This document shows, piece after piece, positions 34,189 through 40,574 of a stretch of DNA of 64,000 bases. Within the stretch, counting starts at the first letter, position 1, and every line of letters begins with the position of its first letter. The stretch lies in NCBI RefSeq assembly GCF_023016805.1, contig NZ_JALKCH010000013.1, positions 1 through 64,000 of the forward strand, given 5' to 3'. The position numbers and the translations under genes are program-made. A model generated the notes under the pieces. It was given only the letters and a program-made list of their open reading frames with translations. It was not told the DNA's origin and made no database searches. The DNA is from Ancylobacter crimeensis (GTDB taxonomy: Bacteria > Pseudomonadota > Alphaproteobacteria > Rhizobiales > Xanthobacteraceae).

Positions 34189-34263
<75 letters not shown>

Positions 34264-34320
34264 TAATTTCCTTAGGAATTCCAATAGTTTACTGATATCT
34301 CTATGCTTTTTCTGGCGCCA

Positions 34321-34344
34321 TTGCTACAAAATGGTGCTACAAAT
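34321..34344 (+). repeat. Candidate integrase arm-type sites, left end
   Basis: TTGCTACAAAAT at 34321-34332, then GCTACAAAT at 34336-34344, 57 bases inside the left att copy. The first is repeated exactly at 40489-40500 near the right end. The second copy overlaps the beginning of the integrase frame, so integrase binding could also repress its own gene. Confidence 0.6.
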
Positions 34345-35857
34345 GGCTCTGCGCATGGTCCGTCCCTTCCGCCATCCGAAGACTGGTATTTTCTGGTTCC
34401 GCAAGGGTGTCCCTGTTGATCTGCGGCTCCGCGTTGGCAAGCGCGAAATCACTCACAGCCTAGCGACACGAGACCCTGATACCGCCAAGGAACTGGCCGC
34501 GCCACTAGATGCGGAGTGGACCGCCCGTTTCAAGTCGCTCCGGTCAGGCGTTACAGTTCTGACTCAAAAACAAATCGTTGCTCTCGCTGGCCGCGTCTAT
34601 CGTGCGTGGGTCGCGGGTATGAGCGATGAGCCGGGGCCGGCAAGTATATGGGAGCGGTTGGAAAAGCTGGCGGGTGAGCGTCTACAGGCCGGTGGCGCGG
34701 TGAAGTGGTTTGCGTCAGAGGTCGATGCGGAGTTGCTGCGGGAAGGCTTGGCTGTTGATGAAGCCACCCATGCACGTTTGATAGCGGAGACGGACAAGGC
34801 TTTTGTTCAGTCCGCTCGCTTGTTGAAGCGCCGCGCCCAAGGCGACTACGGTCCTGACCCCGATGAGGGGCGCTTTCCAGAATGGACTGCGACGGGGGAC
34901 GTTGGGGCCACGCGGCAGGAAACAACCGTCCCCCTCATGGGCCTCTTTCAGGGCTATCTGCGGGAACTTCAAGCGTCCGGTCGTGGGGGCGAAGCTGAGC
35001 GCCGTTGGATGCCTGTCCTTCGCGCCTTCATCGAAACCCTCGGACACGATGATGCGCAGCGCGTGACGAAGGAAGATGTCATCCGCTGGAAAGACCAGAG
35101 GCTAGAGACCCGTGCGCCTAAGACCGTGCGCGACACGGAAATCGCCGCTCTCCGGGCCGTCTTCGCGTGGGCAGTAGATAACGCCAAGCTCTCTGAGAGC
35201 CCCGCGAAGGGTGTCAAAGTGCGCCTCACGGAGAAGCCGCAGGCGCGAGAGAAGGGCCTGACAAAGGCCGAGGCGGCCGCCGTGCTCAAGGCTGCACGGG
35301 ACTACCGGAAGTCTGACCGTGAGTACCTGCAAACCGCCGCCGCCAAGCGTTGGGCGCCGTGGTTATGTGCTTACTCCGGCGCGCGCGTCTCCGAAATCAC
35401 GCAACTCCGCAAGGAGGACATTCGGCAGGACGATGGTATCTGGTACATGCGTATCACGCCTGACGCGGGGTCGGTGAAGACTGGTCAATACCGGGACGTG
35501 CCCTTGCATGAGCATGTCGTGGCCGAAGGTTTCCTCCGCTTCGTGGAAACCGCCGAGACCGGGCCGCTATTCTTCGCCGCTGGGGAGCGCAAGAGCAAGG
35601 TTCACCCATCCAAGCAGGTCGCCCAGCAGCTCGTTGAGTGGATACGCGGCCTCGGCATCATCGGGCAGGACGTGAAGCCCAATCATGGTTGGCGGCACGC
35701 ACGCAAGACCATCGGCCGGGAGCTTGGCTTGAACCCGCGCGTGCTGGATGCCATTGAGGGGCACGCAAGCCGCACCGCAGGCGACGACTACGGAGATGTG
35801 ACGCTGAAAGCCAAGGCTCTGGTCGTGTCGCAATATCCGCGCTTCCACCTTGAATAG
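34331..35857 (+). CDS. int: Tyrosine-type site-specific integrase
   Basis: A 508-residue phage-type integrase. The N-terminal part (MVRPFRHPKTGIFWFRKGVP) resembles the DUF6538 domain of phage integrases. A SAM-like core-binding domain spans roughly residues 200-310. The catalytic set is visible: Arg in SGARVSEITQL, a Lys in VKTGQYRDVPL, His-x-x-Arg in NHGWRHARKT, His in IEGHAS and the nucleophile Tyr in GDDYGDVTL. It lies just inside the att copy in tRNA-Thr and surely integrated the element there. ATG 34331, 34343 or 34352 are possible starts. Confidence 0.95.
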   Translation: MVLQMALRMVRPFRHPKTGIFWFRKGVPVDLRLRVGKREITHSLATRDPDTAKELAAPLDAEWTARFKSLRSGVTVLTQKQIVALAGRVYRAWVAGMSDEPGPASIWERLEKLAGERLQAGGAVKWFASEVDAELLREGLAVDEATHARLIAETDKAFVQSARLLKRRAQGDYGPDPDEGRFPEWTATGDVGATRQETTVPLMGLFQGYLRELQASGRGGEAERRWMPVLRAFIETLGHDDAQRVTKEDVIRWKDQRLETRAPKTVRDTEIAALRAVFAWAVDNAKLSESPAKGVKVRLTEKPQAREKGLTKAEAAAVLKAARDYRKSDREYLQTAAAKRWAPWLCAYSGARVSEITQLRKEDIRQDDGIWYMRITPDAGSVKTGQYRDVPLHEHVVAEGFLRFVETAETGPLFFAAGERKSKVHPSKQVAQQLVEWIRGLGIIGQDVKPNHGWRHARKTIGRELGLNPRVLDAIEGHASRTAGDDYGDVTLKAKALVVSQYPRFHLE

Positions 35858-35888: not shown

Positions 35889-35916
35889 AAAAAAATGAAG
35901 CCCCTCGCTGGGCTTC
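35889..35916 (-). terminator. Intrinsic terminator of the element's minus-strand operon
   Basis: On the minus strand GAAGCCC AGCGAG GGGCTTC is followed by AT and seven Ts. It lies about 95 bases after the stop of the ParB-like gene and closes the minus-strand operon of the element, facing the integrase gene tail to tail. Confidence 0.85.
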
Positions 35917-36009: not shown

Positions 36010-36834
36010 CTAGAAAGGCATCGCACCGCCGTCTTCCGCCCGCTTATCCCAATGCTCTGAAAACTCCCCGTCCGTCTCATGCTGGGCCTTGAGCGCGTCC
36101 AGCATGCTCGCCATGAGTTTCAGCATTTCGTCCCTCACCGCGTACTCCGAAGCGTCCTCGAAGCGGTCCTTCAAAGCAGATAGGGTCACACAGAACGGCT
36201 CCACTTCGGGGACCCTTTCCGCCTTGCCCGTGATCGAGCCGCCCTCTCCGATGAAACCATCGTGGCCCCCCATCTTGGCCGCTGTCCTAGGAAAATCTAG
36301 CTGCATCCATCGCAGCACTGTCGTCTTCGGCGCTCCGACCTGCGCGGCTATCTCGGCATAGGACAGGAAGTCCCCTGCCGCTGACGTTCCGTCCCTTCTG
36401 TGGCCACCCTTGGCAACGTGCTGCCGCGTCCTGATGAACGCCCGGAACATCTTTCGCCGCTCCTTGGGCTTCAGCGGAAGGCCGTGCACGTCGTTCGCCT
36501 TCGCCGCCCGCCACTGCGCCTCTGCGCGCGACAGGGTCACGGCGCTCGCCTGCACCGTGTCGCCCCCGATACGCTCAATCGCCCTGAAGCGGTGGTGCCC
36601 GTCTATGATGACCGGCACCGTCTCCTCGCCCACGAAAGCAATCGTGATAGGCGCGACCACCGTGCCTGCCTTGTAGAGGCCTGCCAGCTTGGTCACGTTG
36701 CCCGCATCCAGTGCACCGCGTATCTGATAAACAGGGTCGCGCCTGATGTCTTCCAGCTTCACCGTGAAGGGGCCGACATCGCCGCCCTTGGCCTCCGCTG
36801 CGGCTTTCCGCACGGCCTCTATCGCCTTCACCAT
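36010..36834 (-). CDS. ParB-nuclease-domain-like DNA-binding protein
   Basis: A 274-residue protein. Residues ~20-110 resemble the ParB/sulfiredoxin fold: VKLEDIRRDPVYQIRG and the signature VIIDGHHRFRAIERIG. A helix-turn-helix follows (SYAEIAAQVGAPKTTVLRWM, near residues 160-180), and the C-terminal ~70 residues are helical. No ParA is present, so a regulatory or DNA-marking role is likelier than partition. Its ATG at 36834 overlaps the preceding stop by seven bases (ATGGTGA), which decides the start over a longer frame. It is the last gene of the element's operon. Confidence 0.8.
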   Translation of the reverse strand: MVKAIEAVRKAAAEAKGGDVGPFTVKLEDIRRDPVYQIRGALDAGNVTKLAGLYKAGTVVAPITIAFVGEETVPVIIDGHHRFRAIERIGGDTVQASAVTLSRAEAQWRAAKANDVHGLPLKPKERRKMFRAFIRTRQHVAKGGHRRDGTSAAGDFLSYAEIAAQVGAPKTTVLRWMQLDFPRTAAKMGGHDGFIGEGGSITGKAERVPEVEPFCVTLSALKDRFEDASEYAVRDEMLKLMASMLDALKAQHETDGEFSEHWDKRAEDGGAMPF

Positions 36835-37280
36835 CGCGCGCGCCTGCCTGATTTGCCTGTCCGCCGACCTACGGGAGGGGCGCGCATTGTCAAGGTCGTC
36901 CTTCCATCCACAGCCCTGCGCATCCCCCGGAGAGGCGCCTCTACCAGCCGCCCGCGGCGCCAAGCGGTGAACACGCGGATGACCTCGGCGCGGACCTGCT
37001 TGGCCTTGGGGGTTCGCGAGAGGAGGCAGACGAGGAGGGCTTGTTCCTCGTTGAGGTAATAGGCGGTGCCGGGGCGGCCTCGTCCGAGAGCGTCGGCTGA
37101 TTTAGCGGGCGCTGCCCGCAAAACCCCAAACCCTTCAAGCTCAACGGCGTTTGGGCCGATGATGTCCTTTCGGATGTCCCTCGCCCGAGACATCCCGAGC
37201 CTCTCCGCGAGGTCCGTATCAAGCACCCTCGGCTCATCATGCCGCCGCTCTCGAAGGTGCGTGGCTAGGCGTCGTCCCAA
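36828..37280 (-). CDS. Phage-type regulator (Rha/antirepressor-like)
   Basis: A 150-residue protein with the pattern EPRVLDTDLAERLGMSRARD, a short linker, and then YYLNEEQALLVCLLSRT followed by a helix ending VFTAWRRG. This layout is shared by phage regulatory proteins of the Rha/antirepressor kind and suggests DNA binding. The C-terminal 40 residues are basic. The likely start is TTG 37280, overlapping the upstream gene's TAG by 16 bases; no in-frame ATG is suitable. The assignment rests on pattern recognition and is moderate. Confidence 0.6.
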   Translation of the reverse strand: MGRRLATHLRERRHDEPRVLDTDLAERLGMSRARDIRKDIIGPNAVELEGFGVLRAAPAKSADALGRGRPGTAYYLNEEQALLVCLLSRTPKAKQVRAEVIRVFTAWRRGRLVEAPLRGMRRAVDGRTTLTMRAPPVGRRTGKSGRRARW

Positions 37281-37840
37281 GGATAGCCCTCCGGTGGCTT
37301 AGGAAGGCCGTAGGTAAGCGTTCGTTCGGTGACTGCGCCTGTGGCGGTCGGTACGATGGAAGCCGCTTCCGTGGCTGCGACAGGGCCCCGTACCGCCGTC
37401 TTCGCTTGTCCCTTCGCGGGGGCGCCGTTCTCCATGACATCCGCCATCCACGGCCCGAAGGTCTTCACCCGCTTTTCCGCAGCGTTCGCCGCTATTTCCT
37501 TCAAGCCCGCGTGGGTGAGGAAGGCCGCCCTATCGAAGGTCGGGACTGCCTTCTTGCCTGCGGTATCGAAGTCCTCTCGCCGCAGTGTCACCCTGTTCGC
37601 GTCCGACACGCGCAAGCCTGCAAGGACAGGCCGCGTTCCGTGCGGTGGTTTTGGCTCATAGCCAATCGCCTTCAGCACATCGTGCGCCATCATGAGGCGC
37701 CCGTGAACGGGGTGTCTCGCCGCTCTTATCGTGCCCCCATCGGGGTAGCGCAGGTTGTGCAGGGTGAGAGATGCTGTACTGTCGTTCATGGGCGTGGTGT
37801 CTGCTGTCTCGCGGTGCTGCGGAGGGACGTGGCTATTCAT
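37265..37840 (-). CDS. BRO-N-like (phage antirepressor-like) protein
   Basis: A 191-residue protein. Residues ~18-125 have the outline of a BRO N-terminal domain: GTIRAARHPVHGRLMMAHDV, LKAIGYEP, and a later FLTHAGLKEIAANAAEKRVK then FGPWMADV, where the classical domain has its S-x-K-x-x-A-x-x-F-x-x-W motif. The C-terminal ~60 residues look linker-like and end in EGYPWDDA. ATG 37840 follows the stop of the upstream gene by one base; ATG 37789 is the alternative. It probably regulates the element or a helper phage. The family call is tentative. Confidence 0.6.
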   Translation of the reverse strand: MNSHVPPQHRETADTTPMNDSTASLTLHNLRYPDGGTIRAARHPVHGRLMMAHDVLKAIGYEPKPPHGTRPVLAGLRVSDANRVTLRREDFDTAGKKAVPTFDRAAFLTHAGLKEIAANAAEKRVKTFGPWMADVMENGAPAKGQAKTAVRGPVAATEAASIVPTATGAVTERTLTYGLPKPPEGYPWDDA

Positions 37841-37841
37841 A

Positions 37842-38549
37842 TCACGCCGCCGCCGCTTCGGGGGCCGTGGCACCGGCAAGGCGGGCCGCAAGCCGCCGCT
37901 CCACTTCGGCCTCAAAGGCGGCTTCACGTTCGGCCTCACGCGCCGCGCGCTCACGGTCACGCTCTGCCCGCTCATGGCGAATGCGGTCCTCAAGCTCCTG
38001 CTTCTCCGTCTCCCTCGCGAGATACTTCCGCGTCATCGCCAGCGGACGGAAGCGCCACATGAGGCGAAGCCAGAGCTGATGCAGACGCCAGTAGCGCACC
38101 CCCACCACAAGGTCGCGCAAGAGGAGAACAATGAGCCCGAGGGTGAGAAGCGGGATGCCGATGGCGCACCACGGATAATGACCAATCCGCTGCACCCCTG
38201 CGGACGGCCCGGAACGGCGCAGCAGATCGTCCATAGAGTAAGAAAAGTCAAAGTGCCCCACACTCACCAGAAGCGTTCCCGGCCCTTCATCGGTCTCGCG
38301 GTCGAAGACCCCTTCCCACTCCATGGCAAGACTGCCGATGAAGGGCAGCTTCACTATGGGCAGCACGTCAATGCGCCGCGCCACCTCGTCAATGAAGGCA
38401 TCCTGCTCGGCCTTGCTCGGCACCGGCAGGGCACCCTTCCTCACCCGCTCAACCTCCTCGGAGACAGCGGCAGAGGCCCGCTGATAAACGGCTTCAGGCA
38501 TGGCTTCAGGAGCCGCGAGAGGGGCGGCGGAAGAGGTCGTTACGGTCAT
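37842..38549 (-). CDS. Unknown membrane protein with charged coiled-coil tail
   Basis: About 235 residues, not recognised. A soluble N-terminal ~110 residues contains IDVLPIVKLPFIGSLAMEWEG-type segments and SVGHFDFSYSMDDLLRR. One strong membrane segment follows (AIGIPLLTLGLIVLLLRDLV, near residues 135-155). After it comes a 60-residue Arg/Glu/Ala-rich helix, likely a cytoplasmic coiled coil. It is the first gene of the element's minus-strand operon. Starts at 38549 (MTVTTSS) and 38615 are both possible, and neither shows a ribosome binding site. Roles in excluding phage or anchoring the ParB-like protein are conceivable but not shown. Confidence 0.7.
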   Translation of the reverse strand: MTVTTSSAAPLAAPEAMPEAVYQRASAAVSEEVERVRKGALPVPSKAEQDAFIDEVARRIDVLPIVKLPFIGSLAMEWEGVFDRETDEGPGTLLVSVGHFDFSYSMDDLLRRSGPSAGVQRIGHYPWCAIGIPLLTLGLIVLLLRDLVVGVRYWRLHQLWLRLMWRFRPLAMTRKYLARETEKQELEDRIRHERAERDRERAAREAEREAAFEAEVERRLAARLAGATAPEAAAA

Positions 38550-38837: not shown

Positions 38838-39269
38838 CTAGTCGCAAGAGCCGAATAGCACCGAAACAGCCACGTAATCCGGTAATACCTCCATCGAAGA
38901 AATTACCATCAGCATCTTTTCCTCTGTAGATACCACCGCCCGAACTGTGGCGCCTGTGCAACTTATGTTCCCTGTTGCTTCGCTGAAAACGCAGTACATG
39001 TCCTTGCGCATGTCGTTACCGGAAAACGTACCGTATCCGTGCGGCTCCCCGCTGATTGTGTTGGGGAGTGCGATGTCAACTTTAAGTGACTGGACCCCAG
39101 TGAGTTGGTACGCTTTCAACGTGGGTGGGGTTCCCTCACGCGTGATGGATTTGCCCTCGTGCACTCTGCATGACCAGTTTGTTTTACTGAGCGGCACCGC
39201 GCGCGCTTCGCTCATCTGGCCGACAACAAGATGCAACGCCAATGTGCACCGAACCAACCCGTTTGACAT
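38838..39269 (-). CDS. Predicted exported Cys-containing protein of the element
   Basis: A 143-residue protein, not recognised. The first ~24 residues (MSNGLVRCTLALHLVVGQMS then EARA) look like a signal peptide ending in an Ala-x-Ala site. The mature part has four cysteines (WSCRV, MYCVF, ISCTG and GSCD at the end), suggesting two disulfides in the periplasm. Codon use is clearly less GC-biased than in neighbours, a sign of foreign origin. ATG 39269 has GGGGG upstream; a TTG lies one codon earlier. It is separated from the operon by ~220 bases and probably has its own promoter. Confidence 0.6.
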   Translation of the reverse strand: MSNGLVRCTLALHLVVGQMSEARAVPLSKTNWSCRVHEGKSITREGTPPTLKAYQLTGVQSLKVDIALPNTISGEPHGYGTFSGNDMRKDMYCVFSEATGNISCTGATVRAVVSTEEKMLMVISSMEVLPDYVAVSVLFGSCD

Positions 39270-39455
39270 CAAGTCTTATTCCCCCGCCGTAGCCGTACTA
39301 TGCCACCTTATCCCGAAAGGGAAAGTGGCGTGAGGTGGCGGGGCTGGGAGGCGCCCTAACCCCCTCGGATTGCGGTTCTAGAGCGTCGGTTATTCCTCTT
39401 CAGCAAGGGCGTTTCTTCTACCTATAGTGGGTGATTTGATCATGAGATACTACAT

Positions 39456-40109
39456 CTATGCATCAACGCCTCCTAGTGCCCGATAGACGCTTCCACGACC
39501 TATCCCCAACTCCTTGGCAACCTGCGTCACCGTCATCCCCTGCGCATGCAGCCGCCGCGCATCCTCCGCCTTGGCCCTCGCGGTCGGCTTGCGTCCGAGG
39601 TAGCGACCCTCCGCCTTGGCCTTGGCGATGCCCTCCTTCTGTCGCTCAAGCATCATCTCGCGTTCGAACTGTGCGAACCCCGCGAAGATGTTCAGGATCA
39701 GCCGCCCCGTGGCGCTGCGCGTATCGACCGTCTCGCCCCCGAGGTTCAGCACACGAAGGCTGACGCCCTTGGCTTCAAGCTCCTTCACGACCTCCCAAAG
39801 GTTGATCGTCGAGCGCGCCAGTCGGTCAATCTTGGTGACGACGAGCGTGTCCCCTTCGCGAACGTAGTCCATCGCGCGCGCCAGCACGGGACGCTCGCCC
39901 ACGGACGATGCCTGTTCGGTGAAGACCCTGCCGCATCCTGCCGCCTCAAGGTCACGGCGCTGGGCGTCGAGCCCGGCCATCTGTTCGGCCGTTGAGGTGC
40001 GCCCGTAGCCGACCAGTATCGGAGCTGGGGGCGGCATGGGCGTGCCATTGGGCACCGCCATTCCCTCTGCTTGATGTGGCGCCGTTTTCCTACGCCCCCG
40101 CCGTGCCAT
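39456..40109 (-). CDS. Serine recombinase (resolvase/invertase family)
   Basis: A 217-residue small serine recombinase. The nucleophile Ser is in LVGYGRTSTAEQMAGLDAQR near residue 39. The conserved VTKIDRLARSTINLWEVV and NIFAGFAQFEREMMLERQKEGIA-type helix follow. A C-terminal Hin-like helix-turn-helix (MTVTQVAKELGIGRGSVYRA) ends the protein. The first ~30 residues are a basic, Pro-rich extension. It lies at the distal end of the element, with repeated GCGTCCA motifs just upstream. It may resolve element multimers or invert a segment; no invertible cargo is visible. Confidence 0.93.
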   Translation of the reverse strand: MARRGRRKTAPHQAEGMAVPNGTPMPPPAPILVGYGRTSTAEQMAGLDAQRRDLEAAGCGRVFTEQASSVGERPVLARAMDYVREGDTLVVTKIDRLARSTINLWEVVKELEAKGVSLRVLNLGGETVDTRSATGRLILNIFAGFAQFEREMMLERQKEGIAKAKAEGRYLGRKPTARAKAEDARRLHAQGMTVTQVAKELGIGRGSVYRALGGVDA

Positions 40110-40547: not shown

Positions 40548-40574
40548 GAGTTCAATCCTCTCTCGCAGCACCAT
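40548..40574 (+). repeat. att site, distal copy (27 bp)
   Basis: Perfect copy of 34238-34264. It marks the right boundary of the integrated element. Chromosomal DNA resumes after it. Confidence 0.95.

Follow-up and report, generated by a model that had tools for sequence, protein, structure and literature searches.

Four overlapping genes in a small, satellite-like tRNA island of Ancylobacter crimeensis

Introduction

What kind of element do four tightly packed minus-strand genes of Ancylobacter crimeensis belong to? The genes, here called A, B, C and D, occupy positions 36010 to 38549 of the window, i.e. the whole stretch of DNA that was analyzed, which comprises the first 64,000 nucleotides of contig NZ_JALKCH010000013.1. 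An initial annotation, made from the letters of the window alone, read them as one unit closed by a terminator and proposed a minimal phage satellite or an anti-phage module. Our analysis partly supports this proposal. The island around the genes, its relatives sharing gene D and larger elements sharing the other genes are satellite-like, whereas a link to defence runs only through restriction systems of relatives and not through A to D themselves; we therefore describe a satellite-like island that is neither a demonstrated satellite nor a recognised defence module. We give a probability of about 0.5 to the reading in which the four genes are the control and accessory operon of a compact mosaic island that belongs to a satellite-like integrative family.

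Results

The four genes lie within a 6.3-kb island between a transfer RNA (tRNA) gene, tRNA-Thr, and a 27-bp copy of the 3′ end of this gene (Table 1). All seven open reading frames (ORFs) of the island are open, and its end repeats are intact. With these repeats and an integrase, and as judged by profiles and Pfam, it is an integrated element without a virion set of its own; T7-like RNA polymerase, portal, capsid and tail genes were not found in it.

Genes A, B, C and D adjoin one another on the minus strand as initially annotated: the stop codon of A and the ATG of B are 1 base apart, B and C overlap by 16 bp, and C and D by 7 bp. Sequence comparison confirmed A to D as real genes, because strong homologues in other genomes (best matches 3e-33 for A, 5e-53 for B, 3e-48 for C and 1.4e-85 for D) make their coding status independent of ORF length in GC-rich DNA. 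The nonsynonymous rate (dN) was below the synonymous rate (dS) against homologues for all four genes as well as for the integrase and the serine recombinase of the island, with ratios of 0.14-0.43 at a dS near saturation, which leaves the selection undated by this test. The TTG start of gene C is preceded, within the 3′ end of gene B, by the ribosome-binding-like sequence CCGGAGGGCTATCC. The terminator assigned to 35889-35916 by the initial annotation was recovered as an intrinsic-terminator-like pattern in which, on the minus strand, ATTTTTTTCC follows a 7-bp stem at 35916-35897. A scan of the region returned 6 terminator-like sites versus 5.6 (standard deviation 2.6) in shuffles; as such sites are no commoner than in shuffled DNA, only position and quality favour the one at 35897-35916. 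No sigma-70-like promoter was detected in the same region scan (0 versus 1.3 in shuffles).

Gene D is the recurrent gene of the four. A ParB-type N-terminal domain is well supported for its product, which matched phrog_1033 (8.6e-15) and whose profile matched the N-terminal domain of Noc, ParB and Spo0J among solved structures (4e-7); the match to Pfam ParB_N reached 0.0022 only, under the family cut-off. A helix-turn-helix (HTH) is probable, the Pfam matches to it being weak only. At the position of the usual ParB motif GERR, D carries DGHHR. The protein is like ParB/Noc CTPase-fold proteins in its N-terminal domain and differs from them by this motif and by its occurrence without ParA. In line with the initial description of a ParB-like protein without ParA, we found no ParA among the 7 proteins of the window island or 189 proteins of related islands. 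Gene D had two weak matches in 50,697 phage records and at least 23 loci in viral contigs; the latter were mostly short N-terminal matches, and only two of them (L110 and L119) were used for context.

The set of integrase, D and serine recombinase recurs in islands of small size, most of them linked to a tRNA gene. Scanning species genomes yielded 29 D loci, with hosts in Ancylobacter, Methylobacterium, Rhizobium, Neoroseomonas, Falsiroseomonas, Dongia, Afipia, Bradyrhizobium, Xanthobacter, Pseudomonas, a Desulfarculus metagenome-assembled genome and others. Adding the window locus and five more brings the number of distinct D loci to 35. Up to 8.5 kb from D, we found an integrase at 30 loci, a serine recombinase at 30, an RNase H at 11, a 219-aa protein at 8 and a BRO-N protein at 4, compared to three integrases and none of the others at 35 control loci searched with the same profiles; some of the same D loci had served as seeds for the integrase and serine-recombinase profiles, and the controls were shorter (224 kb versus 546 kb in total). 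The retrieved DNA contained a tRNA gene at 28 of the 35 loci. Of these 28, 20 are bounded by repeats of the tRNA end: 18 islands measure 4.6-8.6 kb and two 13.1-13.3 kb. The other eight yielded no such repeat.

Several D islands carry restriction genes. Five Ancylobacter D elements with no tRNA nearby (L031-L035) encode an MmeI-type restriction enzyme and, directly upstream of D, a 219-aa protein of no Pfam family, and an Eco29kI-type restriction enzyme with a cytosine methylase is present in 2 of 17 islands. Single HEPN_Swt1, RelA/SpoT and IrrE-type domains occur among the cargo, and type I restriction genes near D at three loci (L036, L038 and L108) were labelled by eye. These surveys started from 270 called or long ORFs, the gene calls coming from a simple caller that may miss small genes. 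After 65 matches to integrase, D or serine recombinase had been dropped, 205 remained. The scan covered 189 of them; the others were the window's own ORFs and copies of A and B. As PHROG matches of pooled island proteins were considered for the best 25 of 61 and the best 25 of 58 families, absences rest on the complete Pfam lists, in which no capsid, portal, terminase or tail family appeared for 106 and 83 island proteins.

The initial annotation further described two of the four genes as resembling phage regulators. This holds with moderate support for gene C, which we label as Rha/anti-repressor-type: it matched phrog_63 (anti-repressor) at 1.6e-7, while Pfam Rha (0.0027; 18.7 bits, cut-off 29.9) and Bro-N (0.055) stayed under their cut-offs and nothing significant was found among solved structures. 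Over 101 aa, gene C shares 80% identity with a 276-aa ORF of genome G261, which adjoins the T7-like RNA polymerase gene of a full prophage. The phage records contained 15 matches to C, the best at 48.6%. Ten of these 15, from Streptococcus satellite phages (31-34%, E 1e-3 to 9e-3), were too weak to use. For gene B, the regulator label derives solely from a profile comparison with the BRO-N alignment (probability 92%). The protein matched nothing in Pfam, PHROG or PADLOC, and its one NCBIfam match was insignificant (0.1). Nothing significant was found for it among solved structures, and its structure model, with a mean predicted local distance difference test (pLDDT) score of 49.8, was too poor to use. 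Gene A matched no family in the protein family scans. Its model, poor overall (mean pLDDT 63.5), contains a helix at residues 126-167 and a confident long C-terminal helix at 169-234, which suggests one membrane span and a long charged helix. A direct phage origin of A and B found no match among the 50,697 phage records, and the 420 pattern stretches that A produced in viral contigs included no relative. None of A to D matched a PADLOC defence model.

Genes A, B-like and C-like recur in larger Ancylobacter elements of 11-18 kb. In genomes G084, G186 and G195, A is found with Rha, BRO-N and B-like or C genes, a 60-aa membrane protein, a serine recombinase and a gp16-like gene, and the elements of G084 and G195 also carry an integrase and a second B gene. 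The G084 element (L066/L067) measures 17.7 kb at tRNA-Leu with a 22-bp repeat, and that of G195 (L070/L071) 18.3 kb at tRNA-Gln with a 17-bp repeat; the end of the G186 element (L068/L069) was not found, the contig edge intervening. The gp16-like proteins of all three are full length (1215-1229 aa; phrog_342 matched that of G084 at 4e-131, with three members matched), and pairwise comparison of their genes gave a dN of 0.24-0.33 versus a dS of 0.76-0.88. No other recognised virion gene is present in these three elements. The larger elements also encode a 423-aa protein of phrog_4756, a family of unknown function. The tRNA-Thr used by the window island is also occupied in G120, by an 11-kb element with integrase, B, serine recombinase and a T7-type single-stranded DNA (ssDNA)-binding protein. 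Two more elements reside in the window genome itself. One is a 5.85-kb island at tRNA-Leu(CAG) on contig C22 (L138:2705-8554), which holds an integrase, a serine recombinase and an orphan gp14-like gene but not D; the other, at tRNA-Glu on contig C24 (L006:8672-12310), contains, besides a copy of B, the end of a gp16-like gene. A 13.1-kb element of Oleispirillum (G296, L140/L141) at tRNA-Ser ties the two kinds of element together; it joins D, RNase H, integrase and serine recombinase with a gp14-like gene, a 1276-aa internal virion protein, DUF3102 and an anti-repressor domain.

Relatives of the orphan virion genes occur in full prophages. The gp14 family phrog_805 was found in 6 of 296 family genomes, one match being the C22 island. 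The other five, with portal, scaffold, capsid and tail genes, are temperate T7-like prophages (L080, L146-L149) in as many of the 296 Xanthobacteraceae-group genomes searched by gp14. These prophages (in G261, G201, G145, G181 and G073) share homologues of C, the ssDNA-binding protein, gp14 and gp16 with the elements. They differ in combining portal, scaffold, capsid and tail genes with all three ejection genes, whereas the elements have only one or two of these. Portal, capsid and tail were found together in four control prophage stretches, and the RNA polymerase in G261. Profiles derived from the prophages detected none of those virion genes across 32 D stretches, two of which (L036 and L104) are one island. 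What they recovered in the larger elements was limited to gp16 (G084, G186, G195 and C24), gp14 (C22 and G296) and the ssDNA-binding protein (G120). The reach of these profiles is limited, as Pfam found one gp14 among D-island proteins that they had missed.

Discussion

If the four genes serve as the control and accessory operon of a satellite-like island, the following course of events can be envisaged, for which we infer mobility, helper dependence and the functions of the proteins. The island would rest quiescent at its tRNA until phage infection or prophage induction, upon which the anti-repressor-type proteins B and C, together with the ParB/Noc-type protein D, would switch it on. The integrase would excise the island and the small serine recombinase would resolve multimers, while D might organise or segregate the excised DNA and A might act from the membrane on the helper or a superinfecting phage. 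A phage, possibly a T7-like podovirus, would provide the particle; we propose such a helper because T7-like prophages occur in the family and share homologues of C, the ssDNA-binding protein and gp14/gp16 with the elements. A more far-reaching version, which we consider rather doubtful, is a satellite class of T7-like podoviruses. It would consist of small tRNA islands with integrase, D and resolvase in Alphaproteobacteria and beyond, some with their own gp14- or gp16-like ejection-core protein able to claim helper particles or re-aim them at DNA ejection. In the smallest known form of this class, the window operon would sense the helper and act as the switch.

A number of observations weigh against these proposals. 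Neither excision nor packaging nor a helper was observed, and the window island lacks a virion gene, a packaging signal and a recognised primase or replication gene. The four genes are also not one conserved unit, contrary to the initial annotation. Among the 296 family genomes, D is present in 19, A in 4, B in 6 and C in 11, and all four occur only in the window genome (G000) and in G084, where contig C4 carries A, B and C while D belongs to an element of contig C16 that also encodes a restriction enzyme. The window island is the only element uniting A to D (1 of 296 genomes), and the intact set was not found travelling in any other tRNA-linked island of these genomes. Gene C corresponds only to the N-terminal part of its 276-aa homologue in G261. 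Several related genes appear damaged: D of G160 is split, the G120 integrase matches in two frames and may be broken, and the BRO-N-type genes of G120, G195 and G211 and the DUF3102 gene of G186 match in more than one frame. The C24 element is fragmentary, with transposase-like genes next to it near the contig end. In the viral contig L119, a serine recombinase, a 219-aa protein, D and an integrase lie beside a terminase large subunit gene, so D alone is no mark of a satellite. The window genome has no full T7-like prophage as judged by phrog_805, whose single match falls inside the C22 island. That the gp16 proteins of the elements form a separate clade was not shown; they are 60-69% identical among themselves and 57-63% to that of the G261 prophage. 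Finally, no clean empty site was found in the genus genomes.

Among the alternatives, we regard a mosaic remnant as unlikely but as a serious contender. The island would then be the decaying leftover of larger prophages or elements, in which the four genes persist without joint action. This would fit the homologues of A, B and C in larger elements and one full prophage, the shortness of gene C and the broken genes of several related elements, and also the situation at the same tRNA in G195, where a second repeat copy is followed by an integrase fragment only. The initial annotation had named scattered, unlinked prophage remnants as the finding that would contradict it. Such a picture emerged in part, with a homologue of C in the full G261 prophage and A and B in elements that are not D islands. 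Those elements, however, bring an integrase of their own, and end repeats flank the ones in G084 and G195. Decay agrees less well with the seven open ORFs and intact repeats of the window island, with the low dN of six of its genes (dS being near saturation and the selection undated), with the organised look of the B-C and C-D overlaps and the ribosome-binding-like sequence, and with the recurrence of similar small island sizes across unrelated hosts. It is because of the broken relatives, the gp16 comparison, contig L119 and the lack of a clean empty site that we leave this explanation a minority share of the odds.

Defence cargo, with A, B and C (and D) as a new module on a small defence island, appears improbable to us. 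Relatives do carry defence genes, namely the MmeI-type enzyme of the five Ancylobacter D elements, the Eco29kI-type enzyme with its methylase and, in one case, HEPN_Swt1. Gene A moreover encodes a membrane protein, as do many abortive-infection genes. However, a known defence system was rejected for lack of PADLOC matches for A to D, B and C resemble anti-repressors, and in the elements examined A and B adjoin phage regulator and virion genes rather than defence genes. We attach very little probability to a conjugation-helped element (an integrative and conjugative or an integrative and mobilizable element) or a plasmid-derived island with D as a plasmid partition relic. A ParB-type protein and a resolvase are a plasmid-like pair and the island encodes both, but neither a relaxase or conjugation family, by Pfam, nor ParA was found among the 7 window proteins and the 189 proteins of related islands.

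Comparison with known systems brings out likenesses to the proposed satellite-like family as well as differences. Phage-inducible chromosomal islands (PICI), P4-like and capsid-forming satellites are characterized by an integrase, phage-type regulators, small size and helper dependence. The present elements share the first three features, and would share the fourth if they are satellite-like in the sense proposed here; they differ from these satellites in that no AlpA, terminase, capsid or P4-type genes were recognised in them. AlpA (PF05930) gave 7 matches in 3 of 6 genomes, none within the elements and none among the window proteins, and on this absence from the elements the known satellite types (PICI, P4 and the phage-inducible minimalist islands, PICMI, of Vibrio) were rejected. 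PICMI are defined by int, alpA and a primase and lie mostly downstream of fis (PMC10803314). They share with the window island the very small size, an integrase, few genes and the lack of capsid-remodelling genes (PMC10803314). They differ in that the present islands lack AlpA and a recognised primase, carry a ParB-like protein together with a small serine recombinase, and are mostly located at tRNA genes. The Pseudomonas transfer-messenger RNA (tmRNA) islands carry intY and alpA, are moved by jumbo phages and have a common region of ~18 kb (PMC12595487). Integration at an RNA gene, direct repeats, a tyrosine integrase, restriction-modification cargo and the lack of autonomous transfer genes are shared features, whereas alpA is present there and ParB and serine recombinase have 0 occurrences in the main text of their description (PMC12595487). 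In the open-licence literature, we found neither an island family with integrase, ParB-like protein and serine recombinase nor a satellite with its own ejection-core protein.

Should the proposed reading be true, the set of integrase, D and small serine recombinase would mark satellite-like islands in hosts for which no such family was found in open-licence papers, and D would provide a search handle for the family. The restriction cargo of relatives would link it to phage defence. The orphan full-length gp16 in elements without a capsid set raises the question of whether a satellite can act through the podovirus ejection core.

Other features of the island

The coordinates are collected in Table 1. 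The window integrase is 77-78% identical to that of G120 at the same tRNA, and the serine recombinase shares 83-86% identity, along most of its length, with its counterparts in four Ancylobacter D islands; the HTH of the window recombinase gave one match to a defence HTH in PADLOC (E 9e-4). The ORF at 38838-39272 has a GC content of 53.6%, lower than that of the island (61.7%) and of the window (67.1%), and is possibly cargo.

Table 1 Features of the window island and their basis.
Feature	Position	Strand	Description	Basis
tRNA-Thr (GGT)	34189..34263	+	integration site	ARAGORN
Left repeat	34238..34264	+	last 26 bp of the tRNA plus one base	27-bp exact repeat with 40548-40574
Tyrosine integrase	34331..35857	+	508 aa	Pfam DUF6538 4.8e-16, Phage_integrase 1e-6; phrog_1 2.3e-32
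Terminator	35897..35916	-	intrinsic-terminator-like hairpin closing the four-gene unit	terminator scan
Gene D	36010..36834	-	ParB-type N-terminal domain and predicted HTH, 274 aa, ATG at 36834	phrog_1033; Noc/ParB structures; alignment
Gene C	36828..37280	-	putative Rha/anti-repressor-type N-terminal domain, 150 aa, TTG start at 37280	phrog_63; G261 ORF
Gene B	37265..37840	-	BRO-N-like, 191 aa, ATG at 37840	profile comparison with BRO-N; homologues in 5 other Ancylobacter genomes (296 family genomes)
Gene A	37842..38549	-	predicted one-span membrane protein with long charged C-terminal helix, 235 aa	no family; structure model; homologues in G084, G186, G195
144-aa ORF	38838..39272	-	between A and serine recombinase, TTG start; may or may not be a gene	no family
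Serine recombinase	39456..40109	-	small, resolvase/invertase type, 217 aa	Pfam Resolvase 7.7e-40
Right repeat	40548..40574	+	copy of the tRNA-Thr 3′ end	27-bp exact repeat

The region of murA and tRNA-Thr was matched in 30 of 30 genus genomes, with a second repeat copy in four (the window genome, G120, G195 and G219). The window's downstream flanking gene was present in the retrieved DNA of only 1 of 27 genomes. In G219 (L203/L204), the second repeat copy lies 29 kb from the same tRNA-Thr with a serine recombinase in between, a putative larger element.

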